From NCBI GenBank assembly GCA_947475995.1, contig CANJNI010000001.1, positions 1-64,000 on the forward strand: DNA of 64,000 nucleotides. The letters run 5' to 3'. Below are positions 26,943 to 57,454 of this stretch, in pieces. Under the pieces are notes generated by a model. The model did not search any database and was not told the origin of the DNA. It saw only the letters and a program-made list of their open reading frames with translations. The translations under genes and the position numbers were made by a program. Position 1 is the first letter of the stretch; every line of letters begins with the position of its first letter. Origin of the DNA: Beijerinckiaceae bacterium. Lineage in GTDB: Bacteria; Pseudomonadota; Alphaproteobacteria; Rhizobiales; Beijerinckiaceae.

Positions 26943-27012
26943 CTTCACCAGCAGCGGCGTCGAAGGTCGCCGCAAAGCGCCTGCGGGCGCATTCATTTCA
27001 GCGGAGCGAAAC

Positions 27013-28551: not shown

Positions 28552-28560
28552 GTCGAGCGG

Positions 28561-28623: not shown

Positions 28624-28644
28624 CGCGGGGTCTCGCGCGTTCGT

Positions 28645-29996: not shown

Positions 29997-29997
29997 G

Positions 29998-31509: not shown

Positions 31510-31549
31510 CGGCCTTCGCCGCAGTCTGCAAAAACCGGGGAGAAGCGTC

Positions 31550-32536: not shown

Positions 32537-32558
32537 GGCTTTCCATCCAGAATTGCGA

Positions 32559-32584
32559 AAAGGCCGGCCTCGCGCCGGCCTTTT
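32559..32584 (+). terminator. intrinsic terminator after tctC
   Basis: AAGGCCGGC (32559-32567) and GCCGGCCTT (32573-32581) pair across a 5-base loop and are followed by further T residues. The reverse strand also ends in a T run, so it can work for the convergent aminotransferase gene whose stop is next to it. Confidence 0.88.
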
Positions 32585-33751: not shown

Positions 33752-34161
33752 TCCATGGCGGGAGCCGTCATGTTAGTGCGCGAAACCGCGAGCGGCATCA
33801 GGCCGAAAGCCAGAAAGAGCGCCAGCGACAGCAGCCCCGGCGGGGTGGCGAGATGCGCCAGATATTGCGCAATCGTGAGGCCACGCAGCGTGAGCGACCC
33901 GGCGACCTCCGCCGTCAGCAGAAGCCCCAGCGCAAAAACTCCCAGCCGCAACGGGTCCGACCGCCAGCGCCGCATGGTCCATCGCGCCGCGAGCCAGCAT
34001 GCAGCCAGCATGACCGGCGCCTCGACCAGCACCGCCGGCATTGCTCCCAATGCTGGCGCAAGCGCGAACTCGCGGATCGGCCCCAGCAGCGCACCGGCCC
34101 AGAACACGATTGCGAAATAGGCGAGCGCCGCCCGGTGCGTCTGATCCGCAGATGTGGACAT
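33748..34161 (-). CDS. hypothetical four-helix membrane protein
   Basis: A 137-residue protein with about four hydrophobic segments (AALAYFAIVFWAGALLGPIR, VLVEAPVMLAACWLAARW, LGVFALGLLLTAEVAGS and GLLSLALFLAFGLMPL). No family I can name. It is the first gene of a two-gene minus-strand unit with the PLP enzyme and divergent from the Rieske oxygenase gene. Confidence 0.65.
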   Translation of the reverse strand: MSTSADQTHRAALAYFAIVFWAGALLGPIREFALAPALGAMPAVLVEAPVMLAACWLAARWTMRRWRSDPLRLGVFALGLLLTAEVAGSLTLRGLTIAQYLAHLATPPGLLSLALFLAFGLMPLAVSRTNMTAPAME

Positions 34162-34271
34162 GCGGCAATAGCGCGCTTGCGCCGGGTTGCTCCACCTTGA
34201 TCTGAATCAAACTGGTCCGCCGCCGAACCCAACATAGTGTCGTCAGGAAATCATAATTCACCGGAGACGCC

Positions 34272-35543: not shown

Positions 35544-35563
35544 AGCGGCTTTTCGAGCGTGAA

Positions 35564-35610
35564 ACCTCGCGCTTCGAGACGCGCCTGCGGCGCTCCTCAG
35601 CATGAGGTTT
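35564..35610. repeat. palindromic repeat, family B
   Basis: ACCTCGCGCTTCGAGACGCG ... CTCCTCAGCATGAGGT, a family B copy 21 bases after the oxygenase stop. It is inverted relative to the next copy at 35639-35687, with which it forms a pair. Confidence 0.72.
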
Positions 35611-35638
35611 CAGTCATGAGAGCAGCGGGCGTTCCGTA

Positions 35639-35687
35639 GCCCTCATGCTGAAAAAGCCGCGCAGCGGCGGTCTCGAAGCGCGAGGGC
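35639..35687. repeat. palindromic repeat, family B
   Basis: GCCCTCATGCTGAAAAAGCC then GCGCAGCGGCGGTCTCGAAG and CGCGAGGGC. It differs from other copies by AAAAAG in place of the usual GGAGG. It lies between convergent genes. Confidence 0.72.
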
Positions 35688-35699
35688 GAATACGCCCGT

Positions 35700-36545
35700 T
35701 CACCCCAGCGGCCCGAGTCCCTGCACCATCAGTCGGTGCATGATGCGCCGCGTTCCGGTGTAGTCGTTCACCGCATAGTGCAGCGTCTGGCGATCGTCCC
35801 AGAATGCGATAGAGCCGGGCTGCCAGCGGAAGCGGCAAGCAAATTCGGGGCGCTTCACATGGTCGAACAGGAATTGCAGCAGCGGGCGGCTTTCCTCCTC
35901 GGTCCAGCCCTCGAAACGCGGCGTGTAGGAGGGGCTGACGAACAGCACCTTGCGACCGCTTTCGGGATGCGTCACCACCACCGGATGCGTCACTTCCTGC
36001 GCCGCCTGATCGAGATTGATCATGGAAGGGTTGCCGCGCTTGTCGGCCCTGGCGAGCTTGCCATAGACCTGCGCGTTGGAATGGACGCCGCGCAACTGGC
36101 CGAGCGTCTTCTTCAACCCGTCTGACAGCGCATCATAGGCCGCGCCCATGTTGATGAAACAGGTGTCGCCGCCGTGGTCGGGAATCTCCTGCGCATACAG
36201 GATCGTCCCCATCGGGGGAATTTCGCGATAGGGATTGTCGGTGTGCCACGCGCCGCCGACATTGCGGTCCTGGTCGGCTTCCTTGCGGATTTCGGCGACC
36301 AGCGGATAGTCCGGCAGGGTCGGAATGAATTTGCTGGCGATGAGCGTTCCGAACTTCTGGCCGAACTCGACATATTTGTCGGTCGGCAGGGTCTGATCGC
36401 GGAAGAAGATGACGCCATGTTCGTTCAGGGCGTTACGAATTTCCGCATAGACCGAATCGGGATGGTCCGCGCCCAGATCGATGCCGAGAATTTCCGCGCC
36501 GATCATGCCGGTGACGGGATGAATGTCGAGATTGGAATTGCGCAT
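35700..36545 (-). CDS. TauD/TfdA family Fe(II)/2-oxoglutarate dioxygenase
   Basis: A 281-residue cytosolic oxygenase. Iron ligands are His101 and Asp103 in AWHTDNPY and His256 in TLHYAVNDY, and Arg266/267 in GTRRIMHR binds 2-oxoglutarate. GVIFFRDQTL near residue 45 is a family motif. Members hydroxylate taurine, 2,4-D, alkyl sulfates and other small molecules, and the substrate here is not defined by sequence. It is convergent with the Rieske oxygenase and stands among other oxidative enzymes, so a catabolic role is likely. Confidence 0.88.
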   Translation of the reverse strand: MRNSNLDIHPVTGMIGAEILGIDLGADHPDSVYAEIRNALNEHGVIFFRDQTLPTDKYVEFGQKFGTLIASKFIPTLPDYPLVAEIRKEADQDRNVGGAWHTDNPYREIPPMGTILYAQEIPDHGGDTCFINMGAAYDALSDGLKKTLGQLRGVHSNAQVYGKLARADKRGNPSMINLDQAAQEVTHPVVVTHPESGRKVLFVSPSYTPRFEGWTEEESRPLLQFLFDHVKRPEFACRFRWQPGSIAFWDDRQTLHYAVNDYTGTRRIMHRLMVQGLGPLG

Positions 36546-36648: not shown

Positions 36649-37200
36649 TCAGGGCGCGGCATCCGGGGCGGCGTTCGCAATGCCCTCGTAGCGCCGCACA
36701 AGCTCGGCGGCGCGGGCGCGGTTTCGGCTGATGAGACAGAGGCTGCGGGCTTCCAGCAGGTCGCGGGGAGCGGAAGGTTCCGCCAGGGCGAGTTGCCCGC
36801 ATTCGAAATCGCGCAGGGCGCGCCAGCGGGTCAGGGCTTCATCCAGTCCCCTGCCCCAGGCCGAGCGCAGCACGGGAGCGACTTCGCTGCGCTGCTCGAA
36901 GGATGACTTGATGCTTTCAACTGTGGACGCGAGCGCATCGTCCGTCGCGCTGGCCGTCTCGCGCAGGCAACGAGTCCACATGGCGGGGTTCATGTCGCGC
37001 GTGCAGACGCCGAGGGGCCGCGCATCGGTCGGCAGTTCAATTCGGGGCGCGGCAGGCTGCGGTTCCGCGCGAATGCCGTAATCCGGAAACCGGTCGGGGT
37101 CGATGCGTCTCGGGGTCTGCGCCTGTGCGTTCCATGCTGCGGCGGCAACGAAAAGCATCGCCAGTCCAAAACCATGCAGTCGCGACCACGAAACCACCAC
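36649..37200 (-). CDS. hypothetical secreted protein, possibly LprI-like (DUF1311)
   Basis: A protein of about 184 residues with an N-terminal hydrophobic signal (ending AAAAWNAQA) and a cysteine-containing helical domain. RCLRETASATDDAL, WRALRDFECGQLALAE and LEARSLCLISRNRARAAEL resemble the cysteine-bearing helices of lysozyme-inhibitor LprI/DUF1311 proteins. I am not certain of the family. I chose GTG at 37200, since it gives a signal peptide of usual length. The frame is open to an ATG at 37269, but that overlaps the divergent dehydrogenase promoter. Confidence 0.6.
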   Translation of the reverse strand: MVVSWSRLHGFGLAMLFVAAAAWNAQAQTPRRIDPDRFPDYGIRAEPQPAAPRIELPTDARPLGVCTRDMNPAMWTRCLRETASATDDALASTVESIKSSFEQRSEVAPVLRSAWGRGLDEALTRWRALRDFECGQLALAEPSAPRDLLEARSLCLISRNRARAAELVRRYEGIANAAPDAAP

Positions 37201-37277
37201 GAAAACAGCCCAGCATACTTGTTGATTGCACCCGACTGGGCGAATATCCGCCCGAACAGCATACATCACAAGCCGGG

Positions 37278-39584
37278 ATGCAGATGACCAAACATTTCAA
37301 GGGACGGCGCGAGGATTTCCGTCTTGTGACGGGCCAGGGGAAATACACGTCGGACTGGGACTTTCCGAACCAGACCCATGCGCATTTCCTGCGCGCCGAC
37401 CGCGCCCATGCGCGCGTTGTGAGCGTTGACGCCTCTGCGGCGCTCGCCATGCCGGGCGTGCTGGCTGTGCTGACCGGCGAGGACACCAAGGCCGCAGGCT
37501 TCAAGACCGCACCGCAACTCGTCCATTATCCCGGCAAGGGCGGGTCGAAGATCCGTGTGCCGCATCGCGAGGTGCTGGCCGAGACGCGCGTGCGCTTCAT
37601 CGGACAGGAAGTGGCTCTGGTGGTGGCCGAGACTGCGGCGATTGCGCAGGAAGCCGCCGAGGCCATCGTGGTGGAATATGAAGACCTTCCGGCGCTGGTC
37701 GAAGCCGAAGACGCGCTCGCGCCCGGCGCGATCCTTCTCTACGACGACGTGCCGGGCAATCTGGCTTTCGAATACGAATATGGCGACGAGCAGAAGACCA
37801 ACGAGGCTTTTGCCAGCGCCGCCCATGTGGTGAGCGTCACCGTCGATATGCCCCGCATTGCGGGCGCGCCGATGGAGCCGAAAGCCTGCTCGGCGACATA
37901 TGACGCTGCGACGGAAACGTATGACGTCTATGCGCCGACGCAAGGCATGTCGATGATGGTGCACAGCCTTAGCGGCGGCGCTTCCGTACCGCCCGAAAAG
38001 GTTCGCGTGCATGCGCTGGATGTCGGCGGCGGGTTCGGGGTGCGCAGCGAGGGCTATACGGAATATTGCTCGATCATGCTGGCGGCGAAGAAGGTCGGCC
38101 GCCCGGTGAAGTGGGTCGGCTCGCGCGCCGAAACGCTCGTGAGCGATCATCACGGACGCGGCGCGAAGATGACGGGCGAACTGGCACTCGACAAGGATGG
38201 AAATTTTCTGGGCATCCGCCACCGCTGGACGGTGAACATGGGCGCTTATCTGTCCAGCGCAGGCGCGTTGATCAACACGATTGCGCCCGCGATCCATTCC
38301 GTGAACATCTACACGATCCCGACGGTTCACGGTCTGCATCGTCTCGCCTTGGGAAACGTGACGCCCGCAACTGCCTATCGCGGCGCGGCGCGGCCGAATG
38401 TGTCCTATCTGGTCGAGCGTCTTGTGGACGTAGCCGCCGACAAGCTCGGCATGGACCGCGTGGACATTCGTCGACGCAATCTCATCACGAAGGAAGCCTT
38501 CCCGTACAAGAACCCGTTCGGAGCCGTTTACGACAGCGGCGATCCGGTGGGGCTGATCGACGAGGTTGCGCAATTTGCCGACTGGAAGGGCTTCGAGGCC
38601 CGCCGCAAGGAAGCCGCTTCGCGTGGCAAGCTGCGCGGCATTTCATGCTGCGTGTTCGTCGAGCCTGCGGGCGGCGGCGGCGCGCCGAAGGAAGAAGTCG
38701 TCATCAAGTTCGGCGCGACGGGCGAAGCGACGCTTTACACGGTGGCCGGACCATCCGGCCAGGGCCACGAAACCGCCTTCCCGGAAGTGGTGGCGGAAGT
38801 GCTGGGCGTTGAAGCCGAAACGCTGACGCTGAGGGCCGGCGATCCGGATGGACCGCATCTGATCGGCGACGGCACCATCGGGTCCCGCTCGCTCATGTCA
38901 CATGGCAGCGCGCTTTATTTTACCGCGCAGGAAATCGTCCGCAAGGGCAAGGAGCTTGCGTCGAAGGCGCTCGAAGCCGCCGAGCAGGACATCGAATTCG
39001 AGAAGGGCCGCTACCGTGTGCGCGGCACGGACCTCTCCATCACCATCGCCGAGATCGCCCGGCGCTATCAGACGCCCGAAGGCAATGCGCTCGACACGAA
39101 GGGAGAGGCCCCGCAGGGCCGCGCTTTCCCGTCAGGCGCTCATGTGTGTGAAGTCGAAATCGATCCCGAGACAGGCGTCATCGAGATTCCGGTTTATGTG
39201 GCGGTGGACGATTGCGGGCGCGTGATCAATCACACGCTCGTGGAAGGCCAGATGCACGGCGGCATCATGCAGGGCCTCGGCGAAGTGATCTCCGAGGAAT
39301 GCGTCTACGACCGCGATGGCCAGCTTCTGACCGGCAGCTTCATGGATTATGCGATGCCGCGCGCCGATGCGATCGGCGATATCAGGCTCTACGATCATCC
39401 GGTGCCGACGCCGAACAACCCGCTGGGGGCCAAGGGCGCGGGCGAAGCCGGAACCACCGGCTCAGTGCCTACCATCGCCAATGCGGTGATGGACGCGCTG
39501 CGACCGCGCGGCATCAAGCGACTGGACATGCCCTATACGCCTGTGAAAATCTGGCGGGCAATTGAGGCGGCAGGGGCAAAATAG
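37278..39584 (+). CDS. xanthine dehydrogenase family protein, molybdopterin-binding subunit
   Basis: A 768-residue Mo-subunit, a second member of the same family as the gene at 24582. KHFKGRREDFRLVTGQGKYT opens the hammerhead domain. Cofactor-binding segments are TAYRGAARPNVSYLVERLVD, VAGPSGQGHETAFPEVVAE and GAKGAGEAGTTGS with the catalytic glutamate. The AYRGAARP loop is that of aldehyde oxidase/xanthine dehydrogenase relatives rather than CoxL. ATG at 37278 was chosen because upstream residues are not family-like; 37284 is also possible. No FeS or FAD subunit genes are adjacent. A binding-protein gene and a capA-like gene follow on the same strand. Confidence 0.85.
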   Translation: MQMTKHFKGRREDFRLVTGQGKYTSDWDFPNQTHAHFLRADRAHARVVSVDASAALAMPGVLAVLTGEDTKAAGFKTAPQLVHYPGKGGSKIRVPHREVLAETRVRFIGQEVALVVAETAAIAQEAAEAIVVEYEDLPALVEAEDALAPGAILLYDDVPGNLAFEYEYGDEQKTNEAFASAAHVVSVTVDMPRIAGAPMEPKACSATYDAATETYDVYAPTQGMSMMVHSLSGGASVPPEKVRVHALDVGGGFGVRSEGYTEYCSIMLAAKKVGRPVKWVGSRAETLVSDHHGRGAKMTGELALDKDGNFLGIRHRWTVNMGAYLSSAGALINTIAPAIHSVNIYTIPTVHGLHRLALGNVTPATAYRGAARPNVSYLVERLVDVAADKLGMDRVDIRRRNLITKEAFPYKNPFGAVYDSGDPVGLIDEVAQFADWKGFEARRKEAASRGKLRGISCCVFVEPAGGGGAPKEEVVIKFGATGEATLYTVAGPSGQGHETAFPEVVAEVLGVEAETLTLRAGDPDGPHLIGDGTIGSRSLMSHGSALYFTAQEIVRKGKELASKALEAAEQDIEFEKGRYRVRGTDLSITIAEIARRYQTPEGNALDTKGEAPQGRAFPSGAHVCEVEIDPETGVIEIPVYVAVDDCGRVINHTLVEGQMHGGIMQGLGEVISEECVYDRDGQLLTGSFMDYAMPRADAIGDIRLYDHPVPTPNNPLGAKGAGEAGTTGSVPTIANAVMDALRPRGIKRLDMPYTPVKIWRAIEAAGAK

Positions 39585-42523: not shown

Positions 42524-45109
<2,586 letters not shown>

Positions 45110-45251
45110 GTATCCAATATGGGGTGATGTGCGCCGCACGAAAGATCGCGAAGCGATTCCGTTTACATCTCGGGACGACTATAGTCTCCGCCGCGACCTT
45201 GTCAGAATCTGGCAGCAGGTCAGCTCGAACGGCGCGAATCGGAGATTTTGG

Positions 45252-47162
45252 ATGCTCAAGTGGTCGATCGCGACAGTCAGCATGGGCGGGACGCTGGAGG
45301 CCAAGCTGGCTGCGGCGGCGCGCGCCGGCTTCCGGTCGGTTGAAATCTTCGAGAACGACCTGACGTTTTTTTCCGGAAGCCCGCGCGACGTGCGAAGCAT
45401 GGCGGGCAATCTGGGCCTGGAAATTATCGCGTTTCAGCCTATGCGGGACTTCGAAGGCATGCCGGAGCCGCAGAGGACTCGCAACCTCGAACGGGCCAAG
45501 CGCAAATTCGACCTCATGGCGGAACTCGGGACATCCCTCCTCTGCGTCTGCTCGAATGTGGCCGACAATGCGATCGGCGACCCCGCACGCGCAGCTGAGG
45601 ATCTTGGCGCGCTGGCGGACCTCGCGCTGCAGCGGGGTTTCCGCGTGGGTTACGAAGCCCTCGCGTGGGGCAAATATGTGCATGACTGGATGCAGGCCTA
45701 TGACGTCGTCCAGCGCGCAAACCGGCCTAACCTCGGCATTGTCCTGGACTCGTTCCATATCTGCGCCCGCAAGAATCCGATCGCCCCCCTGGCGGAGATC
45801 AAGCCGGAGCATATCGCCCTGGTCCAACTCGCCGACGCGCCCGGTATAGTCATGGACCCGATGTCGCTGAGCCGTCATCATCGCTGCTTCCCGGCGCAAG
45901 GCGATTTTCCGTTGACGGAATATCTCGAAGCCATCCTGCGCACCGGATATCGCGGCCCTATTTCGCTGGAGATCTTCAACGACCAGTTTCGCGGCGCACC
46001 CGCAACGGTGATTGCACGCGACGGAATGCGTTCGCTGCAGATCACCGCCGAAAAGCTGGAAGACAACCGAAAGGTTGTCGGGCAACCGCCGATTACGGCG
46101 TCGGCCGCTCTTCCCCCACCCGCGAAAATCGGCGGCATCGAGTTCATCGAGTTTGCGACCAGCTCACACGAATCCGAAGCCCTCACGGCCCTGCTCGAAG
46201 GGCTCGGCTTCACGCTCGTGGCGCGTCATCGGTCCAAGGACGTCGATCTCTACCGGCAGAACGACATCAACATCGTCGTGAACCGGGAGCAGGACGGTTT
46301 TGCGCATTCCTTCTATCTTGTGCACGGCACATCTGTCTGTGCGCTGACGTTGCGCTTCGACGATGCAAGGCGCGCCCTGGAACGCGCCAACGCCCTCGCG
46401 GCGACCACCTATTTCGGCCGCGTCGGACCCGGAGAAGCCGTGATCCCGGCGGTCGGGGGCGTCGAAAACAGCCTGATCTATTTCGTCGACGATACGCCAA
46501 AGGCGAAAAGCAACTGGGATCAGGATTTCATCTTCGAAGGCGATGCGACGCCGAAAGGTCAACTGGAGCGCTTTGACCATCTGTCGAACGTGGTGCGTCG
46601 CTCCGAGTTCCTTTCGTGGATTCTCTTCTACAAGGCGATCCTCGGCTTTCGCGATGAGCCGCAGGTGGAACTCGCCGACCCGTACGGAGCCTTCTTCAGC
46701 CGCGTGATCAGCTCGCCCGACGGATCGGTCCGTATTCCGCTCAATATCGCCGAAGGCGGCTCGACCGGCGTTTCCCGCTTTATCGACTCGTCCGGCGGCG
46801 GAGGAATTCAGCAGATCGCGCTTTCAACGCATGATCTTTTTGCCTTCGTCGAAGCGGCGCGTGAACGCGGCGTCCGGTTTCTCGACATTCCCGACAATTA
46901 TTACGACGACATTGAAGCCCGCTACGATCTTCCTGCCGACACGCTCGACCGGATGCGCGAGCTCAAGATTCTCTATGACCGGACCGCAACCGGCGAGTTC
47001 TTCCACATCTATACGACGATGTTTGAAGATCGCTTCTTCTTCGAGGTTCTCGAGCGCCGGAATTACGACCTGTTCGGCGCTGCAAATACGCCAATTCGAC
47101 TGGCGGCGCAGACCCGGGAACAGGATCTGGCGCAGCAACAGAAAGCTATGTTCGAATATTGA
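45252..47162 (+). CDS. bifunctional 3-dehydroshikimate dehydratase / HPPD-fold protein (QuiC-like)
   Basis: A 636-residue two-domain cytosolic enzyme. Residues about 1-275 are a xylose-isomerase-like TIM barrel (MLKWSIATVSMGGTLEAKLA, LGIVLDSFHI, HIALVQLADA, GPISLEIFNDQFR), with metal-binding Glu, Asp, His and Glu at the barrel mouth. Residues about 295-630 are a 4-hydroxyphenylpyruvate dioxygenase-like vicinal-oxygen-chelate domain (FIEFATSSHESEALTALLEG; HLSNVVRRSEFLSWILFYKA; IQQIALSTHDLFAFVEAARE; EFFHIYTTMFEDRFFFEV). This is the fusion of QuiC/QsuB-type dehydratases that convert 3-dehydroshikimate to protocatechuate, feeding quinate/shikimate catabolism. CGGAGATTTTGG precedes the ATG. No other quinate genes are near. 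Confidence 0.88.
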   Translation: MLKWSIATVSMGGTLEAKLAAAARAGFRSVEIFENDLTFFSGSPRDVRSMAGNLGLEIIAFQPMRDFEGMPEPQRTRNLERAKRKFDLMAELGTSLLCVCSNVADNAIGDPARAAEDLGALADLALQRGFRVGYEALAWGKYVHDWMQAYDVVQRANRPNLGIVLDSFHICARKNPIAPLAEIKPEHIALVQLADAPGIVMDPMSLSRHHRCFPAQGDFPLTEYLEAILRTGYRGPISLEIFNDQFRGAPATVIARDGMRSLQITAEKLEDNRKVVGQPPITASAALPPPAKIGGIEFIEFATSSHESEALTALLEGLGFTLVARHRSKDVDLYRQNDINIVVNREQDGFAHSFYLVHGTSVCALTLRFDDARRALERANALAATTYFGRVGPGEAVIPAVGGVENSLIYFVDDTPKAKSNWDQDFIFEGDATPKGQLERFDHLSNVVRRSEFLSWILFYKAILGFRDEPQVELADPYGAFFSRVISSPDGSVRIPLNIAEGGSTGVSRFIDSSGGGGIQQIALSTHDLFAFVEAARERGVRFLDIPDNYYDDIEARYDLPADTLDRMRELKILYDRTATGEFFHIYTTMFEDRFFFEVLERRNYDLFGAANTPIRLAAQTREQDLAQQQKAMFEY

Positions 47163-47171
47163 CGACGCCAC

Positions 47172-47813
47172 TCATGTCGGGCCGCAGAGCTTCCGCGCCG
47201 ACGGGGTCCAATCCCCGGTGCGGCTGGCGACCATGCTCCGAATGACAGCGCATACATAATTGCGTTGCGCCGGCTGGTTTCCAGGACCTGCGTTGTAGCG
47301 CGCAGCCGCAGACGTCCAGTTTCCTTCTCGGGCGCGTAGATCGCGCAGAAAGCGCGCTGCATAGTCGACGTTCTTGCGTGGATCGAACACATCCTCAATC
47401 CGGGCAAAGTTGCGACCGTGAAACCGTTCGTTGATCTGCATGCATCCGATATCGATGAAGCGTGCGCCGGCGCGCTTCGCGCGTCGGAATGCCTCGACGC
47501 CCTGCTGTAGCGTGGGCGATGCATGAGAAACGCCGTCGATGTTCATTGCCCAGGGAGACATCCTGCCCTTCCTGCCAGATTCCGTCATGCCAACAGCGTA
47601 CAGAACAGACAGCGGAACATTGTAACGACGGGCCGCTTCAAACATAAAGGTCTCGCAGCTTTCCGCGAAGGCTGCCGCTGCGCTGATATTAGTCAGAATC
47701 AAAACCGCCGCGATGCGCGCCCCGACGCCGCCGAGACTCGTCCCCGGGCTTCTCTCGACCGCGCCGCTCGTTGACGAAGCCGGACTCTTCGCGGTCGGCA
47801 AAACGGCCCTCAT
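47172..47813 (-). CDS. lytic transglycosylase (SLT domain) of the flagellar block
   Basis: A protein of about 213 residues with an N-terminal hydrophobic segment ending AAAAFA (about 37-50) and a C-terminal SLT lysozyme-like domain. The catalytic glutamate is in YAVGMTESGRKG, followed by FIDIGCMQINERFHGRNF, VDYAARFLRDL and AARYNAGPG. It would cut peptidoglycan so that the flagellar rod can pass. The domain starts near 47,660, but the signal needs an upstream start; the nearest usable ATG is 47813, which overlaps fliK by 125 bases in another frame. A shorter start is not available. Confidence 0.8.
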   Translation of the reverse strand: MRAVLPTAKSPASSTSGAVERSPGTSLGGVGARIAAVLILTNISAAAAFAESCETFMFEAARRYNVPLSVLYAVGMTESGRKGRMSPWAMNIDGVSHASPTLQQGVEAFRRAKRAGARFIDIGCMQINERFHGRNFARIEDVFDPRKNVDYAARFLRDLRAREGNWTSAAARYNAGPGNQPAQRNYVCAVIRSMVASRTGDWTPSARKLCGPT

Positions 47814-48525
47814 CGACTCTCTGATCCACGCCATGCGGTGAAAGGCTGACCGAAAGGCCGTCGCCTCTTCCATATCCAACGACGAGCGAATCAACTTTCA
47901 AACCTCTTTTTTCGAGTTCCCCAACCAGAAATTCCTTCTCGCGCAAGAGATGCTCCGCAGCCGCCTTCGTCTGCGCCTGAACCTGAAAGCTCACGCCATC
48001 GCCCTTGAGGGACATCCTGACTTCCACTGAACCAAGGCTCTCGGGCTGGAGATGAATGCGAATGATCGACGCATCCTGCCCGGGCGCCTCGGGCCTACTC
48101 TCCATCGCAGCAGCTTTGCCCGACCGCCCCGCCGCTTCCAGTACGGGCCCCATAATCTGGGACGCTACGGTTCCTTCCAAGACACTCGTCTGTGGATTAA
48201 CTTCGGACAGAACCGCCACGAACAAGGGCGGCTGCAAGGCTGCGAAGCTTCGAAGCGACTCCATCGGCCCTTCATCTGGCCCGCTAGTGGACTCGCCGAA
48301 ACCGCCGGGATCGCGTTGCCGATCGAGGGACTCATCCGGAATAACACGCGCGCCTGAGGCCAGAAGACGTTCCTGAAACATCGCTGTGAAGTCAGGCGCA
48401 ACAGACTCGACATTTCCGCCCGGAATACGCGGTTGAAGTCCGCGAGAATGATCAACGCGCGTTTCCGGCCTCGTCATTGGAGGTGCGAAGGGCACGCTTT
48501 CCGACGTGGGGAGATCAATTTTCAT
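47689..48525 (-). CDS. fliK: flagellar hook-length control protein FliK
   Basis: A 278-residue secreted ruler protein. The N-terminal half is low-complexity and Pro/Glu/Ser-rich as usual. The C-terminal Flg_hook domain has IHLQPESLGSVEVRMSLKGD, the LxPxxLGxVxVxL signature, followed by AAAEHLLREKEFLVGELEKR. It is shorter than many FliK/MotD proteins. The ATG overlaps the motC stop by 4 bases, fitting the rhizobial order motB-motC-fliK. Its 3' end overlaps the transglycosylase gene. Confidence 0.85.
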   Translation of the reverse strand: MKIDLPTSESVPFAPPMTRPETRVDHSRGLQPRIPGGNVESVAPDFTAMFQERLLASGARVIPDESLDRQRDPGGFGESTSGPDEGPMESLRSFAALQPPLFVAVLSEVNPQTSVLEGTVASQIMGPVLEAAGRSGKAAAMESRPEAPGQDASIIRIHLQPESLGSVEVRMSLKGDGVSFQVQAQTKAAAEHLLREKEFLVGELEKRGLKVDSLVVGYGRGDGLSVSLSPHGVDQRVDEGRFADREESGFVNERRGREKPGDESRRRRGAHRGGFDSD

Positions 48526-49598
48526 TTGCCCTTGGCCAACAGGCGTTCAGCCTCTTCAATCTTTCCTTCGATGTGCGGCAATCTTCTGACGTCGGGCGAG
48601 ACAGCGCTGGTTGCCGTTGATAAACTGGCGTTCGCAAAGTTGTCGCTCGCCAGAGCAGCCTCCCGGCTCGACATCTGGAGAAAGTTCGCCAAATCCCGGT
48701 CCCAGTCGTTTAGCCTCGGATCAGGTGAAGCCGCGCGAGCCGCCGCCGGGTCAAAGGCCGCAGCATCGCGATAGAGGTCGGCACGAACGAATTCGATTGA
48801 GCCGCGGTCCGCCGCTTGCCTTGCGGCTTCTGCAAATTTTTTGGCGTCGCCAAAATTTCCAGCCAGCAGATGAAATCGCGCCAGTGCAAGTGCGGAACGG
48901 ACCCAGCGGTCCGATCCAACCGAAAGCCCGATCCGCTGAAGCCGCTCGAAACTCCCGGACTTCCGCCCGGCCTGAACCAGAAATTCCTCGATCTCCCGAA
49001 TCAATTCCCCAGCGAAAGGACTGCGCGAGTAGCGCGCCAAATATCGGCTTATCAAAAGTGGTGATTCAACCATGCGTTCGGTACGCAAATAAATCCGGAT
49101 AGCGCGTCGGAATGCGGCTTCCTCAACTGCAGAGTTCGGCGACAACCGTGCGGCCTTCAGAAAGGCTGACGCATCATCAGCGTCTGAAATATCAGCTTTT
49201 GCAAAGGCAAGATAAGGCGCCAGAACGCCATCGACCGTATCGACATCTATTCGTCCCAGGCTGTCACGCGCCCGCTCGTCAGTACCGGCGACGTAGGCTA
49301 CGACTGCCTGCACGACTTCATGGCTCTTCAAACGGTCATGACTGGCAACACGATCCGCCTTCAACAATCCCGCCAGAATTCCTCCCACAACCTGCATCGG
49401 ACCTATCCCCGCCACCGGCGCCGAACGGAACTCTTCATCAATCCTTTGCCGGACAGCGCTCAGTTCGGACATGTCCCTCGCGCCGATGGCGATCTTGTTC
49501 TGCAGATCAATTCCGGCGCGCAACAATGACTTGAACTCCTCAGCCGCGGCCGAACAACAGAAGAGCGCCAAACCGAGGATCGCCAGAGCGCTTCTCAC
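48522..49598 (-). CDS. motC: periplasmic motility protein MotC
   Basis: A 358-residue periplasmic protein of the rhizobial MotC family, which binds MotB and supports stator function. A signal peptide (SALAILGLALFCCSAAA) is followed by an all-helical TPR-like domain (about 20-300). A GTG at 49598 was chosen: it overlaps the motB stop as GTGA, has GAAGGGG before it and starts the signal directly. The frame remains open to 49766, but those residues read through motB in another frame. It is followed by fliK with a 4-base overlap. Confidence 0.85.
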   Translation of the reverse strand: MRSALAILGLALFCCSAAAEEFKSLLRAGIDLQNKIAIGARDMSELSAVRQRIDEEFRSAPVAGIGPMQVVGGILAGLLKADRVASHDRLKSHEVVQAVVAYVAGTDERARDSLGRIDVDTVDGVLAPYLAFAKADISDADDASAFLKAARLSPNSAVEEAAFRRAIRIYLRTERMVESPLLISRYLARYSRSPFAGELIREIEEFLVQAGRKSGSFERLQRIGLSVGSDRWVRSALALARFHLLAGNFGDAKKFAEAARQAADRGSIEFVRADLYRDAAAFDPAAARAASPDPRLNDWDRDLANFLQMSSREAALASDNFANASLSTATSAVSPDVRRLPHIEGKIEEAERLLAKGK

Positions 49599-50599
49599 TG
49601 CCCCTTCAACCAAATCTCGATGCGCCGGTTTTCTGCCGCCAGCGGATCGGCCAGTTTCGGTTGACTGTCGCCGAATGCCTCCAGCTTTTCGATGCGCTTC
49701 GTGGAAACACCATGCCGCACTAACGACTGCGCAGAGGCGGACGCCCTCTCCGCCGACAATTGCCAATTGTTCCCCTTCCCCCGCTGGAAGTTTCGCCCAT
49801 CCGTATGTCCGCCGATGACGATGGGGCCCGGTCGGGTGGCCAACATAGCCGCAATTCGCTTCATCAACGCCTGGGCTCGTGCATTCAAAGTGGACGATCC
49901 GACCGCGAACATTGAAAATTTCTCGTTGTCGGTCAGAATAATGCGCAAGCCCTCACCGGTTCTGGCGAGCGTAACTGTCGGCATCAGCTCCTTAGGCCTT
50001 TCTAACGCGCCCGACTGAACATATTCGGAAACCTCCCGCTCCAATTCAGCAAGTCCCCGCGAAATGAATGATTGCGATGAAAGTCCGTCATGCTTCTCGA
50101 TTTGATCGCGAGCCTGCGACCGCTCAGCAGTCTGCTTCTTGGAAGCTACTGAGGCACTGACGTTTCTGCCAAACAACTCTTTTCCGATCGCCACCTCGTC
50201 TTCAACCACGTCGGTGAACGGGTGCTCTCCCGGGACGTTCCCCTCTCCGGAGCCAATTCCTGCGGCCTTTGCCAGACTCACTGCGCTTGCGTCCTTATTC
50301 TCCCGAACATCTCCGGGATACTCCAGCGGGCGCGCCTGAGACGGCTCCTCGACGCCACGCTTCTGGGCGGATTTCTCTGCCATCTGGATCGGATTGAAAT
50401 AGCGCGCCAGGGAAATCCGTGTTTCCTTCGTGGTGGAATTCACGATCCACAAGACAAGGAAAAACGCCATCATTGCTGTCATGAAATCAGCGAAAGCAAT
50501 TTTCCAGACCCCGCCATGGTGCCCGCCATCGTGAGCAGCCCGGCTCCGGCGCACAATGATGATCGGCGGCTCAGTACTCCCGATCTGCTCACTCGGCAT
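49595..50599 (-). CDS. motB: flagellar stator protein MotB
   Basis: A 334-residue stator subunit. The single membrane helix WKIAFADFMTAMMAFFLVLW includes Asp38, the proton-binding residue. A long Ser/Glu/Lys-rich linker (about 75-190) follows, and the C-terminal OmpA-like peptidoglycan-binding domain has IVIGGHTDGRNFQ and NNWQLSAERASASAQSLVRH. All key parts are present, so the protein looks functional. I chose the ATG at 50599, which overlaps the previous gene by 11 bases. Its normal partner MotA is present in this window only as part of a fusion with FliF. Confidence 0.9.
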   Translation of the reverse strand: MPSEQIGSTEPPIIIVRRSRAAHDGGHHGGVWKIAFADFMTAMMAFFLVLWIVNSTTKETRISLARYFNPIQMAEKSAQKRGVEEPSQARPLEYPGDVRENKDASAVSLAKAAGIGSGEGNVPGEHPFTDVVEDEVAIGKELFGRNVSASVASKKQTAERSQARDQIEKHDGLSSQSFISRGLAELEREVSEYVQSGALERPKELMPTVTLARTGEGLRIILTDNEKFSMFAVGSSTLNARAQALMKRIAAMLATRPGPIVIGGHTDGRNFQRGKGNNWQLSAERASASAQSLVRHGVSTKRIEKLEAFGDSQPKLADPLAAENRRIEIWLKGQ

Positions 50600-51149
50600 G
50601 GGACTCGAGCTCCCCGAACAAACACTCAAGTTTCAGCATCAACTTAGCACCGTCCAACTGAAGCAGAATGACGTCCTGCTGTACGTACTCGCCGGAAATA
50701 ATCGCCTCAACAGCGGCCATGACCGGCGCGACACTCACTCCTCGTGCGGCTTCGTCCGATATATCCTCCAACCTTTTCTTCAGCTCTGTCGCAATTCCGC
50801 CAATTGCCCTTTCACGAACGAACGGACTCAGGGCGCGAAAAAGTACATCGCAAAATTGCTGTGACAAGCCTTCGATGTTCCGGTTCATGACACCCATCAA
50901 TTCATCGCGAACAATAGAATAATGCTCCGTCGTCGCTCCAACGCGGGTCCTGTGTCTGGAAAGAACGCTGTCAATTTCCCGCGTCAGGAATTCCGTCATC
51001 AGCTGAACAGCTAAACCGTCGTCCCCATGCACTCCCCAGTCAGACGATTGCTGATCGACAGACTTCGGTAAGTCATGTGAAGATGGCCGAGGCCCGGTCG
51101 CAAATGCTCTCCAGCCAAACGGTGGAATGCAATTCATCCCTTTAGCCAT
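50589..51149 (-). CDS. flagellar-cluster protein in the FliH position
   Basis: A 186-residue, mainly helical protein I cannot assign with certainty. It has no signal or membrane segment. The region about 50-165 (MTEFLTREIDSVLSRHRTRV to VQQDVILLQLDGAKLMLKLE) has the length and helical character of FliH, the regulator of the FliI export ATPase, and in related clusters a FliH-like protein lies between fliF and motB. It overlaps the motA-fliF end by 16 bases if it starts at 51149; an ATG at 51137 would give the ATGA overlap typical of coupled genes. Confidence 0.6.
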   Translation of the reverse strand: MAKGMNCIPPFGWRAFATGPRPSSHDLPKSVDQQSSDWGVHGDDGLAVQLMTEFLTREIDSVLSRHRTRVGATTEHYSIVRDELMGVMNRNIEGLSQQFCDVLFRALSPFVRERAIGGIATELKKRLEDISDEAARGVSVAPVMAAVEAIISGEYVQQDVILLQLDGAKLMLKLECLFGELESHAE

Positions 51150-53413
51150 AACCTGAGGACCCGGACAGAGCGATCTTCATCCTTGATAACGAGCTGTTCC
51201 AGTTCATCCGCAAAGCGCTTCTGGAACGATTCTACTTGCGAGACGCGATCGTTCTCCGGCGAAGATTCATGCGTTAAAGCGGAAGGAGGAGGAGGCACGT
51301 TTTGAACGTCGCCATTTAACAATGTCAAACCAGGCGCGCTGCTTGCAGGGTCAACCGGCTTGAAAAGCGACAACGCAACCGGCCTCACCACAACCTTGGC
51401 CACGAAGCCAACCGCAATCAGCCAGAGAAGCCCACGCACTGTGTCACCGCCGTGGCACACTAGCAATTCTTCTATCAAGCTAACGCGTTCCAACGCGCCG
51501 TTGCGTTCTTCATCGAATTTGACGAAGCTTACCTTCAGATCATGCTCCTTGCTTCGCTTCAGGCCCGCGGCCGATGTGATGAGATCCTCCAGTTCCTGCT
51601 TGTCAGGAACACGCACTCCGCCGACCTCGGTCTTCGCAATCCCACGGTCGCCGATATCGTTGATGGCGACCGACAAGGTCGCGTATGTAATTTCATACCC
51701 ATCCGATTGCGTTGCGATGGATTTGGACGAAATCTCATAATTTGTAATTTCATCTCGTTTCGCATTGTCTTCGTTCGACTGCCGCGGCGATGACGAGGCA
51801 GAACGAGAATCCGGCTGATTGCGGTCAACGCTGGCGGAGGCCTGTGACGATGAATTCTGCGACGTCTGGTTCTCGCGGATCGCTCGGACGGACCGATCAA
51901 CTCTCGAATCCGGATTGAACGTCGTCTCCGAAATCTGGCGCTTGTCTGCATTCAACCGCACAGTTGCATTGACAAGAATATTGCCCGCGCCGAATATCGG
52001 ACCCAAGGTTCGGACCACATTGTCCCGCATGTCCTGCGCGGCGGCTCGCTCAAGCGTCAGCAAACGCATACTGCCAGCATCATCATTGTCGCCGCCGCCA
52101 ATCAGCATGCCGGTATTGGAAACAATCGTCACTCGTTCGGGAAGTAGCCCGGGCACTGCACCTGCAACAAGGCGACGAATCGCAAGCGCGGGGATCTGCT
52201 TGCCGTCGCTTTCTGCATTGATGATCACTGAAGCCGACGCTTCCTGCTTTGCTTTGCGAAAGCTCCCGTCCATCCCGAAAACAAGATGGACGCGCGCGCT
52301 GTTCACTCCCCGGATCTGCCGAATAGTTCTGGCGAGTTCGCCCTCGACGATTCTTACCTTCGTCATATCCTGGACGAAAGTGGTCAATCCTGTCGCGCCG
52401 AGGCGATCCATGATTTCATAACCGTACGTTGGTTCGGACGGGAAGCCGCGTTCCGCAAGCAGTCCCTTGGCGCGAGCCGATTCCGCACTGCCAACCTGTA
52501 TGCTGGTCCCATCAGCAGACAATTCGTAGGCGAGTCCTGAATCCCGCAACGCCTGTGTAATCTTTGCTGATTCCGCTCTATCCAGGTTTGAATAAAGAAC
52601 TGACTTGGACGGCGTTGCCTGCGGCATAGACCAAAGAACGAGAAGTACCGCCGCAATGGCTAGCAAAATGCCCGCCAGCACCGCGAGCCGCCTGTCGGAG
52701 CGTAGCCGCAACTGCTTTTCACGGGTTATCTTGATCTTTGCCGAGAGCGGCGAGATGATTCCATAAGAGACAAAAATGCCCACAAAGGTTCCTACCAGCG
52801 CTGCGCCTATCAATCCGCCGAGAATTTCCGGCGATTGGTCGAGCGCTCCCATTGCCTTGATCACTCCCAGAACAGCAGCGACAATTCCGAGCGCCGGCAT
52901 GGCGTCAGCAACCGATGTCAGCGCATGGTATGGCTTCATGAAATCATGTGCGAGAGTCTGAAGTTCTTCGTCCATCAGCGCCTCGATCTCGTATGATTTC
53001 GCTTTCCCCATGATCAGGAGGCGGATGTAGTCGCAGATGAAGGTGGCGAGAGTTGGCCTGCCGAGAACCGTGGGACTCGACAGAAAGATTGCCGACTCGC
53101 CCGGGCGTTCTATATGCGCCTCCACTTCGGCCTTGGTTTTCTGGCGGAGTTCCTTCATCAAAGCGTGCAACAGCGCCAGCAGTTCAAGATGTTCCTTCTC
53201 GTGCGGCGCGCGGCCCAGCAGAGCCTCTACGATGGCCGCGCCAGTGTCCTTGATGGTTGCAGGACTGTTTGCGATCACGAATGTGCCGAGCGCTGCGCCG
53301 CCGATGATGACGAATTCCCACGGTTGCCAGATGACGACCAGATGCCCGCCCATCGCGGCGAATCCGCCGAGCATGCAGCCCAGAGCGATGATCAGACCTA
53401 TTGCGAAACTCAT
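51134..53413 (-). CDS. MotA-FliF fusion: stator subunit joined in frame to the MS-ring protein
   Basis: One frame of 759 residues. Residues 1-234 are MotA: four helices (from SFAIGLIIALGCMLGG), the charged loop VEAHIERPGESAIF, Pro173 in ADAMPALGIVAAV and Pro222 in YGIISPLSAKIKI, all conserved for stator function. MotA stops just after KITREKQ, losing about 45-50 C-terminal residues. From LRLRSDRRLAVLAG (about 235) the protein is FliF: first helix (about 241-261), ring-building YSNLDRAESAKITQALRDSG, GYEIMDRLGATGLTTFVQDM, VEGELARTIRQIRGVNSARV, second helix near the end and the FliG-binding tail SVRVLRLWLKG. FliF lacks about 20 N-terminal residues. Both ends at the junction (near 52,711) are cytosolic, so topology is consistent. 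GGAAGGACG precedes the ATG. Confidence 0.85.
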   Translation of the reverse strand: MSFAIGLIIALGCMLGGFAAMGGHLVVIWQPWEFVIIGGAALGTFVIANSPATIKDTGAAIVEALLGRAPHEKEHLELLALLHALMKELRQKTKAEVEAHIERPGESAIFLSSPTVLGRPTLATFICDYIRLLIMGKAKSYEIEALMDEELQTLAHDFMKPYHALTSVADAMPALGIVAAVLGVIKAMGALDQSPEILGGLIGAALVGTFVGIFVSYGIISPLSAKIKITREKQLRLRSDRRLAVLAGILLAIAAVLLVLWSMPQATPSKSVLYSNLDRAESAKITQALRDSGLAYELSADGTSIQVGSAESARAKGLLAERGFPSEPTYGYEIMDRLGATGLTTFVQDMTKVRIVEGELARTIRQIRGVNSARVHLVFGMDGSFRKAKQEASASVIINAESDGKQIPALAIRRLVAGAVPGLLPERVTIVSNTGMLIGGGDNDDAGSMRLLTLERAAAQDMRDNVVRTLGPIFGAGNILVNATVRLNADKRQISETTFNPDSRVDRSVRAIRENQTSQNSSSQASASVDRNQPDSRSASSSPRQSNEDNAKRDEITNYEISSKSIATQSDGYEITYATLSVAINDIGDRGIAKTEVGGVRVPDKQELEDLITSAAGLKRSKEHDLKVSFVKFDEERNGALERVSLIEELLVCHGGDTVRGLLWLIAVGFVAKVVVRPVALSLFKPVDPASSAPGLTLLNGDVQNVPPPPSALTHESSPENDRVSQVESFQKRFADELEQLVIKDEDRSVRVLRLWLKG

Positions 53414-53531
53414 GCTTCGTCCTTCCGGCGTGGACATTCCCGTCAGGCGCTGGCGCGAGGCTTGCCGCGCCTTTCCAGTTTCGAGCAATCGTTGGGCTCG
53501 ATCTTGCCTCTTTCCATTCGAGGACTGCGGC

Positions 53532-54254
53532 ATGGATGCTTTGGCTATCGGGCTATCCACACAACGCGCGCTTGCGCAATCTGTGGATACGATTGCTTAT
53601 AACCTGGCGAACGCCAGCACGACCGGCTTTCGGGCGACTGCTGAACGTTTTGAACGCAAGAGCCGGATGGCTGACGGCGTCCCGGTCGACATGGTGCAAA
53701 GCCAGGCTGGCGCGCTGGAGCGCGCTTCCGGTTCGCTGACCAAGACCGACAACCCGTTGGACGTCGCGGTTTCTCAGGACCGCTGGCTCGGTGTGCAGAC
53801 GCAGGCAGGCGTTGGCTACACAAAGGACGGACGGCTGAAGATCGCGGAAAGCGGAATGCTGATGACGTCGATGGATTTGCCCGTCGTGGATGAATCCGGC
53901 GCCCCCATCATGGTGAACCCTGCGGGTGGCCCGTTGCTCATCCGTCAGAACGGGGTCGTATTGCAGGACGGTGCGGAAGCTGGACGCATCGGGCTGTTCA
54001 GTCTTCCGCCCGAAGCGAATCTGCAGCGGCTGTCGCCTCTTGTGGTCTGGACCGAGTCGCCAGCCGATGCGGGTGGCGAAGGGCGTGAAGCGTCCCTCCA
54101 GCAAGGGTTTCTCGAAACCTCCAACGTAAACCCGATGGCCGAGTTGACGAAGCTCATCACTGCGCAACGCTTCTTCAGCGGCACAACGACGCTGATCGAA
54201 GCGTGCGAAGCGTCGTTCAATGACGCCATCAAGACGCTATCCGCAACAGGTTAG
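53532..54254 (+). CDS. flgF: flagellar basal-body rod protein FlgF
   Basis: A 240-residue proximal rod protein exported by the flagellar type III system. The N-terminal MDALAIGLSTQRALAQSVDT and IAYNLANASTTGFRA are the rod/hook motif, and the C-terminal GFLETSNVNPMAELTKLITA with the final QRFFSG segment is the matching coiled-coil end. It starts at ATG 53532 (GAGGACTGCGGC before it), divergent from motA-fliF with only 118 bases between, so they share a promoter region. It overlaps or directly precedes fliI. Confidence 0.9.
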   Translation: MDALAIGLSTQRALAQSVDTIAYNLANASTTGFRATAERFERKSRMADGVPVDMVQSQAGALERASGSLTKTDNPLDVAVSQDRWLGVQTQAGVGYTKDGRLKIAESGMLMTSMDLPVVDESGAPIMVNPAGGPLLIRQNGVVLQDGAEAGRIGLFSLPPEANLQRLSPLVVWTESPADAGGEGREASLQQGFLETSNVNPMAELTKLITAQRFFSGTTTLIEACEASFNDAIKTLSATG

Positions 54255-55635
54255 CCGGGTGCTTTCTCTTGCGGAGGATCCGCGACTTGCACGATTGTTA
54301 CGGATTGCAGAGTTCAGCGCTTGCATTTCGGATCACATCCTGTGCGGCGGCATGGTGGCGAGCGTCGATGAAGAGCTGGTCGATTTAACCGGTGTATCTC
54401 GGGTCGCGGCAATCGGCGATCTTGTCAGCGTGGAAACCAGTTCGTCTTCAACGATCGTTGGCTCGGTTGTGCGGATTTCGCCGGAACGGACAACTGTCCT
54501 GGCCCACGATTCCAGAGGACTTAGACTCGGGCAGTATCTCTATCTGCGGGGACCGGCGACCATAAGGCCCGATGCATCATGGCTTGGATCGACAGTCGAC
54601 GCATTGGGACGCAAGATTTCCGGCCCCGGCAACTGGCGATTGGGCGCTGACCGGGTGGTGGTCGAGCATCAAGGCTCTCGCCCCGAGATCAAGGGCGCGG
54701 AAAGCTGGAGTGCGGTGGGGACGGGTGTAAAGGCGCTCGATCTCTTCACTCCGATTTGCAGAGGGCAACGCATCGGCATCTTCGCCGGGTCAGGCGTCGG
54801 AAAATCGACCTTGCTCAACATGATTGTCGAGCGCGCTTCGTGCGATGTCGCGGTCGTGGCGCTGGTGGGAGAACGACGGCGCGAAGTTGCGGATTTTCTT
54901 GCCCTGACTTCTCCGACCATTTTGCAGAAATCCATCTGCGTGGTGGCGACGAGCGATGAGCCGGCCTTGATGCGAAGTATTTCGCCTCTTACTGCTATTA
55001 CTGTCGCGGAGCATTTCCGCCGTCAGGGCCTGAATGTGCTGCTGGTGATCGATTCGCTGACGCGGTTCGCCCATGCGGTGCGGGAAATCCTGCTGGCGGG
55101 CGGCGCTGCGCCTGTCGCGCGAGGCTATCCGGCGGGGGTGGCGGGGCATATGGCGCGGCTGGTCGAGCGGGCCGGGCCGGACCCCGCGAGCGGCGGCGCC
55201 ATTACGGGCGTGTTTTCTGTGCTGGTCGACGGCGATGATCATAACGACCCCGTCGCGGATGCGGCGCGCGGCTTTCTCGATGGACATATCGTGCTCGATC
55301 GCGCAATCGCGGAACGCACGCAATATCCGCCGGTCGACATCCTCAAATCGATTTCGCGCCTTGCAGACCGGGCGCTGTCGGCGCATCAGCGCACGCTCGC
55401 GACCCATGCGCGCAAGCTTATCGCCTCTTATGAGGGCACGCGCGATCTGCGCGCCATCGGAGCTTACCAGCGCGGCTTCGATCCATTCGCGGATTCGGCA
55501 GTCGAGATTGTTCCGCGCATCTACGATTTTCTCAACGAAGCTCCGGGCAGTCCGCGCGACACCGATCCTTTCGCGGGTCTTGCGCGCATTCTGGGCGCGC
55601 CGTTCGCGATGCCGCCCGGCAAAGGCCCTGCGTAA
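54220..55635 (+). CDS. fliI: flagellar export ATPase FliI
   Basis: A 471-residue ATPase of the flagellar type III export apparatus, related to the F1 beta subunit. Walker A is GIFAGSGVGKSTLL, VALVGERRREVADFL holds the catalytic glutamate loop, and Walker B is LLVIDSLTRFAHAVRE. The YPPVDILKSISRLA motif is typical of FliI. Two starts compete: ATG 54220, overlapping flgF by 35 bases, or GTG 54259, with AGG 8 bases ahead of it; the latter sits 5 bases after the flgF stop. Codon use changes within the gene near 55,000 from mixed to strongly GC-ending. Confidence 0.92.
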   Translation: MTPSRRYPQQVSRVLSLAEDPRLARLLRIAEFSACISDHILCGGMVASVDEELVDLTGVSRVAAIGDLVSVETSSSSTIVGSVVRISPERTTVLAHDSRGLRLGQYLYLRGPATIRPDASWLGSTVDALGRKISGPGNWRLGADRVVVEHQGSRPEIKGAESWSAVGTGVKALDLFTPICRGQRIGIFAGSGVGKSTLLNMIVERASCDVAVVALVGERRREVADFLALTSPTILQKSICVVATSDEPALMRSISPLTAITVAEHFRRQGLNVLLVIDSLTRFAHAVREILLAGGAAPVARGYPAGVAGHMARLVERAGPDPASGGAITGVFSVLVDGDDHNDPVADAARGFLDGHIVLDRAIAERTQYPPVDILKSISRLADRALSAHQRTLATHARKLIASYEGTRDLRAIGAYQRGFDPFADSAVEIVPRIYDFLNEAPGSPRDTDPFAGLARILGAPFAMPPGKGPA

Positions 55636-55680: not shown

Positions 55681-55938
55681 ATGGACCGAGACGCCGCGCC
55701 CTCCAATGGCGCCACCCTGCGCGAGCTTCGCCGCTCGCCGAGCCTCCTGCGCTTGCGGATGATCGAACTTTCGAACAGCCTGCGGACGCAACACCTGCCG
55801 AAAGAGCTGGCAGACGAGATCCGCGCCAGCATCGCTTCGCTTCGGCGGGCGATTCTCGAATATCCCTCCCTTTCGCTGGCCGATCTCGACGCCAAGACCC
55901 GGACCGCACGCGGCTTGCGCTACGGGAGTGCGGCCTGA
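55681..55938 (+). CDS. hypothetical small helical protein after fliI
   Basis: An 85-residue, basic, alpha-helical protein: LRELRRSPSLLRLRMIELSN and ADEIRASIASLRRAILEYPS form two likely helices. The position after fliI resembles that of small export chaperones such as FliJ, but the length and sequence do not match FliJ. GGAGAGATGA precedes the ATG. The stop shares a base with the next start (TGATG). Confidence 0.6.
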   Translation: MDRDAAPSNGATLRELRRSPSLLRLRMIELSNSLRTQHLPKELADEIRASIASLRRAILEYPSLSLADLDAKTRTARGLRYGSAA

Positions 55939-56480
55939 TGGGAGTCCTGCTCGCCAAGGCGGCGGCCCTTTTCCAGCACGGCGCGCTGTCTTTTGTCGGA
56001 AGTACGCTGGCGGTCGGCTCTGCGGCTTTCGCAGGCTATATGATGATCAACACGCCGGAGACGCCCTATTTCGGCGGGCTTCAGCATCTCGCGATCTTTG
56101 CGCAGCCTTCCGGCGCGCAGACGGCTTCGCCCGGCGAAATGGCGTCCGCCAGGGAACGGCTCGCGCGCGATCTCGCGCAGATGAAGAATCTGGACATGAC
56201 TCCCATCGGGACCATTCCGAAAGCGCCCGCAAAGCCTGCTGCGCCTTCCTCCCTGCCTGTCTCGCCCGATTACGCGCTGATCAGCCTTGTCGGCAGGAAG
56301 GCGCTGGTGCGTTCGGCTGACGGCGTCCGGCTTTACGACCGGGGCGATGCGATCGGATCAATCGGAAAGTTCACCGCTGTCGAGCGCTTCGGCCAGGGGT
56401 GGAGCCTTGTGACCGAGAAGGCCCGGATTCTCGAACCTCCTGCGCCCGCGTCTGCGTCAAGCTCCACGAAAGCCCCATAG
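55938..56480 (+). CDS. hypothetical membrane-anchored protein with GspC/PilP-like C-terminus
   Basis: A 180-residue protein. One N-terminal helix (about 16-37, ALSFVGSTLAVGSAAFAGYM) anchors it in the inner membrane, followed by a flexible Ala/Pro linker (about 80-110) and a C-terminal beta domain: YALISLVGRKALVRSADGVR and RLYDRGDAIGSIGKFTAVER recall the homology region of GspC/PilP secretion proteins. The resemblance is by eye. It is coupled to the previous gene and precedes the flagellin gene by 53 bases. Confidence 0.6.
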   Translation: MGVLLAKAAALFQHGALSFVGSTLAVGSAAFAGYMMINTPETPYFGGLQHLAIFAQPSGAQTASPGEMASARERLARDLAQMKNLDMTPIGTIPKAPAKPAAPSSLPVSPDYALISLVGRKALVRSADGVRLYDRGDAIGSIGKFTAVERFGQGWSLVTEKARILEPPAPASASSSTKAP

Positions 56481-56533: not shown

Positions 56534-57454
56534 ATGACGAGTCTTCTGACCAACGGCACGGCGCTGGCGGTTCTGCAGAACATCAATCAGGTGCAACGCG
56601 ATCTCGAGACCACGCAGGAACGAATCTCGTCCGGCATGCGGGTGAAGTCGGCCGCCGACAATGCGGCCTACTGGTCCATCGCGACCACCATGCGCTCGGA
56701 CAATGCGTCGCTGTCCGCCGTCAAGGACGCGCTCGGCGTCGGCTCCGCGACGCTCGATGTTGCATCGGGCGCGCTCAACAGCACGGTCGATCTCGTCGGC
56801 CAGATCAAGACAAAACTTGTGGCGGCGCGCGAACCGGGGCTTGATCGCGCGAAGGTTCAGGCCGAAATCGCCCAGTTGCAGGCGACCCTGAAGGATATTG
56901 CGGGCTCGGCCTCCTTCATCGGCGAGAACTGGCTGTCGCAGGATTCCGCCGCGCCCGCCTACAATGCCACCAAAACTATCGTGGCCTCGTTCAATCGCAC
57001 CACAACATCAGTCTCTGTCGGCACGATCGACATCGACAGTTCGAACATGAAGCTGTTCGATGCGAACGACCAGAGCGGCATTGTGGACCGGGACCGCACC
57101 ATCAATGCAACCACGGTCGCGCTGGCCACGATGGACATTTCCGGCCTGAGCGATTCATCGGCCGATCTGCAGACTCTGGATGACTACATTTCGATTGCTG
57201 ACGCCGCTCTGGGCGATGTGGCGTCGGCTGCCAGCAGCATCGGTTCGGCGCGGCGCCGCGTTTCGATGCAGCAGGATTTCGTCAACACGCTGATGGATTC
57301 CATCACCACCGGCATCGGCCAACTGGTCGATGCCGACATGACGCGCGAATCCACGCGGTTGCAGGCGCTGCAGGCGCAGCAGCAACTGGCAATCCAGTCA
57401 CTCAGCATCGCTAATTCAAGCAGCCAGCAAATCCTGAAGCTGTTCGGCGGCTAG
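56534..57454 (+). CDS. fliC: flagellin
   Basis: A 306-residue flagellin. The N-terminal D0/D1 region (ALAVLQNINQVQRDLETTQE, ISSGMRVKSAADNAAYWSIA) and the C-terminal end (FVNTLMDSITTGIGQLVDAD, QQLAIQSLSIANSSSQQILK) are intact, while the variable outer domain is small (about 140-220). The size is typical of short alphaproteobacterial flagellins. GGGGCGATC stands before the ATG. It is the last flagellar gene of the block; after it the strand and function change to an unrelated binding protein. Confidence 0.93.
   Translation: MTSLLTNGTALAVLQNINQVQRDLETTQERISSGMRVKSAADNAAYWSIATTMRSDNASLSAVKDALGVGSATLDVASGALNSTVDLVGQIKTKLVAAREPGLDRAKVQAEIAQLQATLKDIAGSASFIGENWLSQDSAAPAYNATKTIVASFNRTTTSVSVGTIDIDSSNMKLFDANDQSGIVDRDRTINATTVALATMDISGLSDSSADLQTLDDYISIADAALGDVASAASSIGSARRRVSMQQDFVNTLMDSITTGIGQLVDADMTRESTRLQALQAQQQLAIQSLSIANSSSQQILKLFGG

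Follow-up and report, generated by a model that had tools for sequence, protein, structure and literature searches.

The closest described counterparts of the locus reported here are the lateral flagellar clusters of Rhizobiales and, as far as joined flagellar proteins are concerned, the FliF-FliG fusions of Salmonella. Those portions of PMC6406911 that deal with the lateral cluster of Bradyrhizobium diazoefficiens USDA 110 give in print the same gene order as the one we discuss, with motA beside flgF and fliI and with fliF near the genes running from motB to fliK. The window, that is, the whole stretch of 64,000 nucleotides from a Beijerinckiaceae genome that was analysed, agrees with this cluster in the content and order of both flanks. 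It differs from the arrangement set out there in that it lacks the whole stretch running from the 3' end of motA to the 5' end of fliF, and in that the far half of the cluster lies on another contig.

In Salmonella, the sections of PMC7355467 and PMC8270960 concerned with FliF-FliG fusions describe in-frame joins of ring proteins in which FliF is one partner, one type having part of FliG deleted. Both partners are rotor proteins, adjacent to each other, and some of the fusions are reported in those sections to be functional in motility. By contrast with what these sections describe, the partners in the window are a stator and a rotor protein, and FliG is undetected in the genome. Our literature search found neither "MotA-FliF" nor "FliF-MotA", nor flagellar gene loss and Beijerinckiaceae together.

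Results

We found that a single frame reads from MotA into FliF with no internal stop (Table 1), and that it stays open upstream of its ATG as far as a GTG at 53560. Four Pfam domains occur in the expected order, all above their cut-offs: MotA_N (residues 5-92), MotA_ExbB (135-235), YscJ_FliF (267-438) and YscJ_FliF_C (470-633). Residues 1-237 align to positions 1-237 of the 282 in the NCBIfam MotA1 profile (TIGR03818), as in a known stator subunit. The last part of the profile is missing, and the score of 290 bits lies below the curated cut-off of 303.8, so the protein does not qualify as a full-length MotA, although it has both MotA domains and a motB gene nearby. The NCBIfam fliF profile (TIGR00206) matches residues 245-638 with 154 bits, above its cut-off of 129.75. 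The ring-building region and the tail are kept, and the N-terminal end is replaced by MotA.

Against relatives (G021, G023, G115 and G127 for MotA), the MotA part lacks ~53-56 C-terminal residues, including a segment that is well conserved in five aligned relatives, and the FliF part lacks ~19-24 N-terminal residues. The two conserved prolines and the charged loop of MotA, as well as the C-terminal tail of FliF, are visible in the alignment with five relatives; their roles are presumably the familiar ones. Invariant columns are kept at 94 of 102 positions in MotA (0.82-0.97 in the other rows) and at 90 of 121 in FliF.

The preliminary description of this DNA, which had reported one frame running from MotA into FliF with these prolines, loop and tail in place, is thus borne out. 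Its junction near 52,711 falls within ~20 bases of the ends that we place, and its figure of about 20 lost FliF residues was right. Calling the MotA part "near-complete" was somewhat generous, and the proposed loss of 45-50 MotA residues was slightly low.

Table 1. Flagellar features of the window around the fused frame, in order of position
Feature	Position	Strand	Basis
Lytic transglycosylase (SLT domain), the outermost flagellar gene of the window on that side	47172..47894	(-)	relatives, Pfam
fliK, Flg_hook domain	47689..48525	(-)	Pfam
motC-like gene	48522..49766	(-)	relatives, NCBIfam
motB	49595..50629	(-)	relatives, NCBIfam, Pfam
Short gene lying between motB and fliF, without a family	50589..51149	(-)	matched to relatives by position only
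motA::fliF fused open frame	51134..53413	(-)	759 aa, ATG to stop
FliF part, residues ~241 to 759	51134..52693	(-)	relatives' alignment, NCBIfam, Pfam
Join, putative scar of a ~12 kb deletion	52693..52706	(-)	alignment ends, synteny
MotA part, residues 1 to ~236	52706..53413	(-)	relatives' alignment, NCBIfam, Pfam
flgF, divergent from motA	53532..54254	(+)	relatives, NCBIfam, Pfam
fliI	54220..55635	(+)	relatives, NCBIfam, Pfam
Open region, weak likeness to a short protein beside fliI in G023 and G372	55920..56429	(+)	no Pfam family
Flagellin, here on the fliI side	56534..57454	(+)	relatives, NCBIfam, Pfam

The most informative relative is G372, a genome of the same GTDB genus in which motA and fliF are unfused and their frames are separated by 11,853 bases. 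Its flanks match those of the window, with fliI, flgF and motA on one side and fliF, motB, motC, fliK and the transglycosylase on the other; the short genes lying between fliF and motB in the two genomes are not detectably similar. Within the interval, Pfam identifies FliM, FliG, FlhB, FlgC, FlgG, FlgA, FlgI, FlgH, FliL, FliP and flagellin. Inspection of a third frame by eye revealed a fliN; flgB and fliE were placed by position only, and two further frames have no clear family. The window therefore carries the flanks of an unfused relative and lacks the block between them, five families of which are absent genome-wide.

These five are FliG_C, FliMN_C, FlhB, FliP and FlgI, for which genome-wide family searches returned no match on any of the 73 contigs of the draft (95.87% complete). 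Each search included 14 control genomes, and the families match in 3 or 4 of them. In G372 the hits to FliG, FlhB, FliP and FlgI reach 98-441 bits and FliM only 34.7 bits on FliMN_C; since the FliM/FliN models are weak even there, strongly diverged versions of FliM or FliN could escape detection. The Flg_bb_rod family matches only FlgF and the hook gene FlgE. Consequently, no component of the switch complex FliG/FliM/FliN was found, the export gate is represented by FlhA, FliQ and FliR and lacks FlhB and FliP, and neither a Flg_bb_rod protein beyond FlgF and FlgE nor FlgI of the P ring was recovered. The preliminary description had suggested looking elsewhere in the genome for these genes and for a second motA or fliF. 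FliF is present in one copy, the fused protein matches its own genome once, and there is no other flagellar MotA. PF01618 has four matches besides the fused gene. One of them (L001) lies beside an apparent ruvB end and reads by eye as TolQ; the other three (L003, L004 and L005) were judged, also by eye, to be other MotA/TolQ/ExbB-like proteins.

Outside the block, a second flagellar group is kept on contig C20 (L052 and L053, ~25,400-35,900, mid-contig). It comprises a response regulator, flgE, flgK, flgL, flaF, flbT, flgD, fliQ, flhA, fliR and a rod-binding protein, flgK being called by similarity to relatives and the flgL match being weak. In G372 this group follows directly after the transglycosylase, and its position on C20 implies at least one more rearrangement. 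The flagellin gene, which lies beyond fliI in the window, sits in G372 beside fliF inside the absent block, and in a seven-genome tree the nearest relative of the window flagellin is that of G372. Because of this placement, one deletion alone is insufficient; there must also have been a second flagellin copy, or the gene must have moved.

Third-position GC is ~0.58-0.70 in most flagellar frames (47172-55635 and L052/L053) and mostly 0.70-0.90 in flanking genes. Elsewhere in the window, two large subunits of molybdenum hydroxylases of the CO dehydrogenase/aldehyde dehydrogenase type (24570-26942 and 37125-39584) score below the curated cut-off. A gene beside uvrB (45012-47162), also below its curated cut-off, combines a strong likeness to the 3-dehydroshikimate dehydratase QuiC with a 4HPPD-like part.

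Our survey covered 397 genomes, 314 of which gave a match, and we parsed 149 matches from 96 genomes among the matches listed. Within that set, 53 genomes of the family have both motA and fliF. The order is motA then fliF on one strand in 19, with 10.6-15.2 kb between the matches in 17 of these; it is fliF then motA in 14, while the two lie on opposite strands in 13 and on different contigs in 7. In the same-genus genomes G021 and G023, fliF precedes motA by ~21 kb, and G025, which belongs to a different family within the order, shows the motA to fliF direction with ~13 kb between. Given this variability, the ancestral order that we use is the one inferred from G372. Some same-genus genomes, e.g. 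G017, carry a second, distant type of MotA and FliF. Neither half is matched in ten of the 24 same-genus genomes; five of these ten have a completeness of 90% or more and a contamination of 5% or less.

The preliminary description had also proposed a search for the same architecture in relatives. An uninterrupted MotA-FliF span occurs in the window's own genome alone among the 41 genomes compared, no other span over both halves was seen among the matches listed of the 314 matching genomes, and none was found in 80 of 88 named loci, a set which may omit the window genome's own or very near records. The fusion is accordingly unique only among the matches covered. Two candidates were rejected: in G008, residues 2-325 are matched with one internal TGA, and motA is followed by an independent frame where fliM would stand; in G291, a 667-codon open stretch at motA exists, yet motA and its neighbour are each encoded in a frame of their own.

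FliF, FliI, FlhA and FlgF of the window genome sit on long branches, whereas the UvrB control is short (0.078); the effect is weaker in MotA, flagellin and FlgE than in those four. In a larger FliF tree the end branch measures 1.75 against a median of 0.46 and falls inside the lateral-type clade (13 rows, support 98/95). A distant transfer source for FliF is not favoured, as the protein groups with the lateral-type FliF of the family, although its placement is unsure. None of the 19 retained flagellar frames that we checked is interrupted; the motC, transglycosylase and fliI segments were cut inside their frames, and their starts lie outside the stop test. Over the 18,000 nt of these frames, 2.75% of random substitutions would create a stop. 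Provided that selection ceased at the deletion, zero stops are expected only below ~0.6% neutral change at the 5% level for the 19 frames, and below 4.8% for the fusion alone. So much change combined with 19 open frames implies that most of it accumulated under coding constraint, before the deletion.

Discussion

We consider it probable (roughly 0.83), on comparative sequence evidence, that motA::fliF arose when a single deletion removed ~12 kb from a rhizobial flagellar cluster of the lateral type and left the two genes joined in frame. The cluster would previously have had the order found in G372, with fliI/flgF divergent from motA-fliM-fliN-fliG-flhB-(short gene)-flgB-flgC-fliE-flgG-flgA-flgI-(motE-like)-flgH-fliL-fliP-flagellin-fliF-(short gene)-motB-motC-fliK-transglycosylase. 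One breakpoint would lie at codon ~237 of motA, ~53-56 codons short of its end, and the other ~19-24 codons downstream of the fliF start; the frame would have been kept by chance, an outcome expected 1 time in 3. Loss of the genes that separate motA from fliF in relatives, with the frame preserved, was among the options raised in the preliminary description, and it is the one that the synteny with G372 and the absent families favour.

Cells without a C-ring, FliP/FlhB, FlgI and most rod genes should be without flagella. Lacking the C-ring, a complete export gate and most of the rod, the organism should not form a normal flagellum, whatever the chimera does. With no motor left, the chimera, if it is made, would have none to act in, and the paradox of a stator-rotor fusion jamming its own motor, which had been raised beforehand, does not arise. 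What we see looks like a flagellum under dismantling rather than a new type of motor.

The main competitor of the deletion reading is an artefact of assembly or of strain mixture, in which the block is still present in the organism but was left out of the contig. The draft state of the genome is compatible with this, and open frames throughout are what one would expect if the cell swims. They are unexpected for an old loss, which means that the loss is either recent or that the block was dropped by the assembly. This is why the artefact, unlikely as we hold it to be, is still left a real share. Against it, such a skip usually needs repeats at both edges, and motA and fliF are unrelated. Moreover, within the 153 kb of the genome's own sequence that we scanned, a minority of the whole, none of the 16-base words from 52,600-52,830 occurs a second time, so that neither a repeat-mediated loss nor a repeat-driven misjoin is indicated there. 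Nor does any of the 73 contigs hold the missing families as a separate piece, and a random misjoin would preserve the frame in only 1 case out of 3.

Two further explanations accept the fusion as real, and we hold both to be very improbable. The block may have moved into the few percent of the genome that escaped assembly, leaving the chimera as a by-product while the flagellum works from the moved genes. The completeness of 95.87% gives room for this, and flagellar genes are already divided between contigs C1 and C20; on the other hand, the whole ~12 kb must fall in the gap, and the motor would need an intact motA and an intact fliF, neither of which was found. With an equally slim chance, the fused product is expressed and retained as a membrane protein that has taken on a new task outside the flagellum, in a cell unable to build one; none of our results points to such a task.

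Least credible of all is a new design, as in the stator-MS-ring fusion put forward at the outset, with MotA and FliF working as a single polypeptide, either in a flagellum of reduced form or in some other machine: the open frame, join sides that should both be cytosolic to judge from known topology, and long branches in FliF, FliI, FlhA and FlgF beside a short one in UvrB, a sign of an unusual path with frames still open, would suit it, but FliG, FliM/FliN, FlhB, FliP and FlgI are without a match, the conserved C-terminal segment of MotA is gone, and no second genome has the architecture among the matches listed.

On the deletion reading, the locus illustrates that gene loss can incidentally create an unusual two-domain architecture, a single frame-keeping deletion yielding a protein that resembles an impossible machine. 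Since pipelines would annotate the frame as a stator-rotor fusion, it also serves as a warning for annotation. The absence of both halves from 10 of the 24 same-genus genomes fits repeated flagellar loss in the genus, short of proof. If reads confirm the deletion, this genome would offer a snapshot of early flagellar loss, with the export, hook and filament genes still open.
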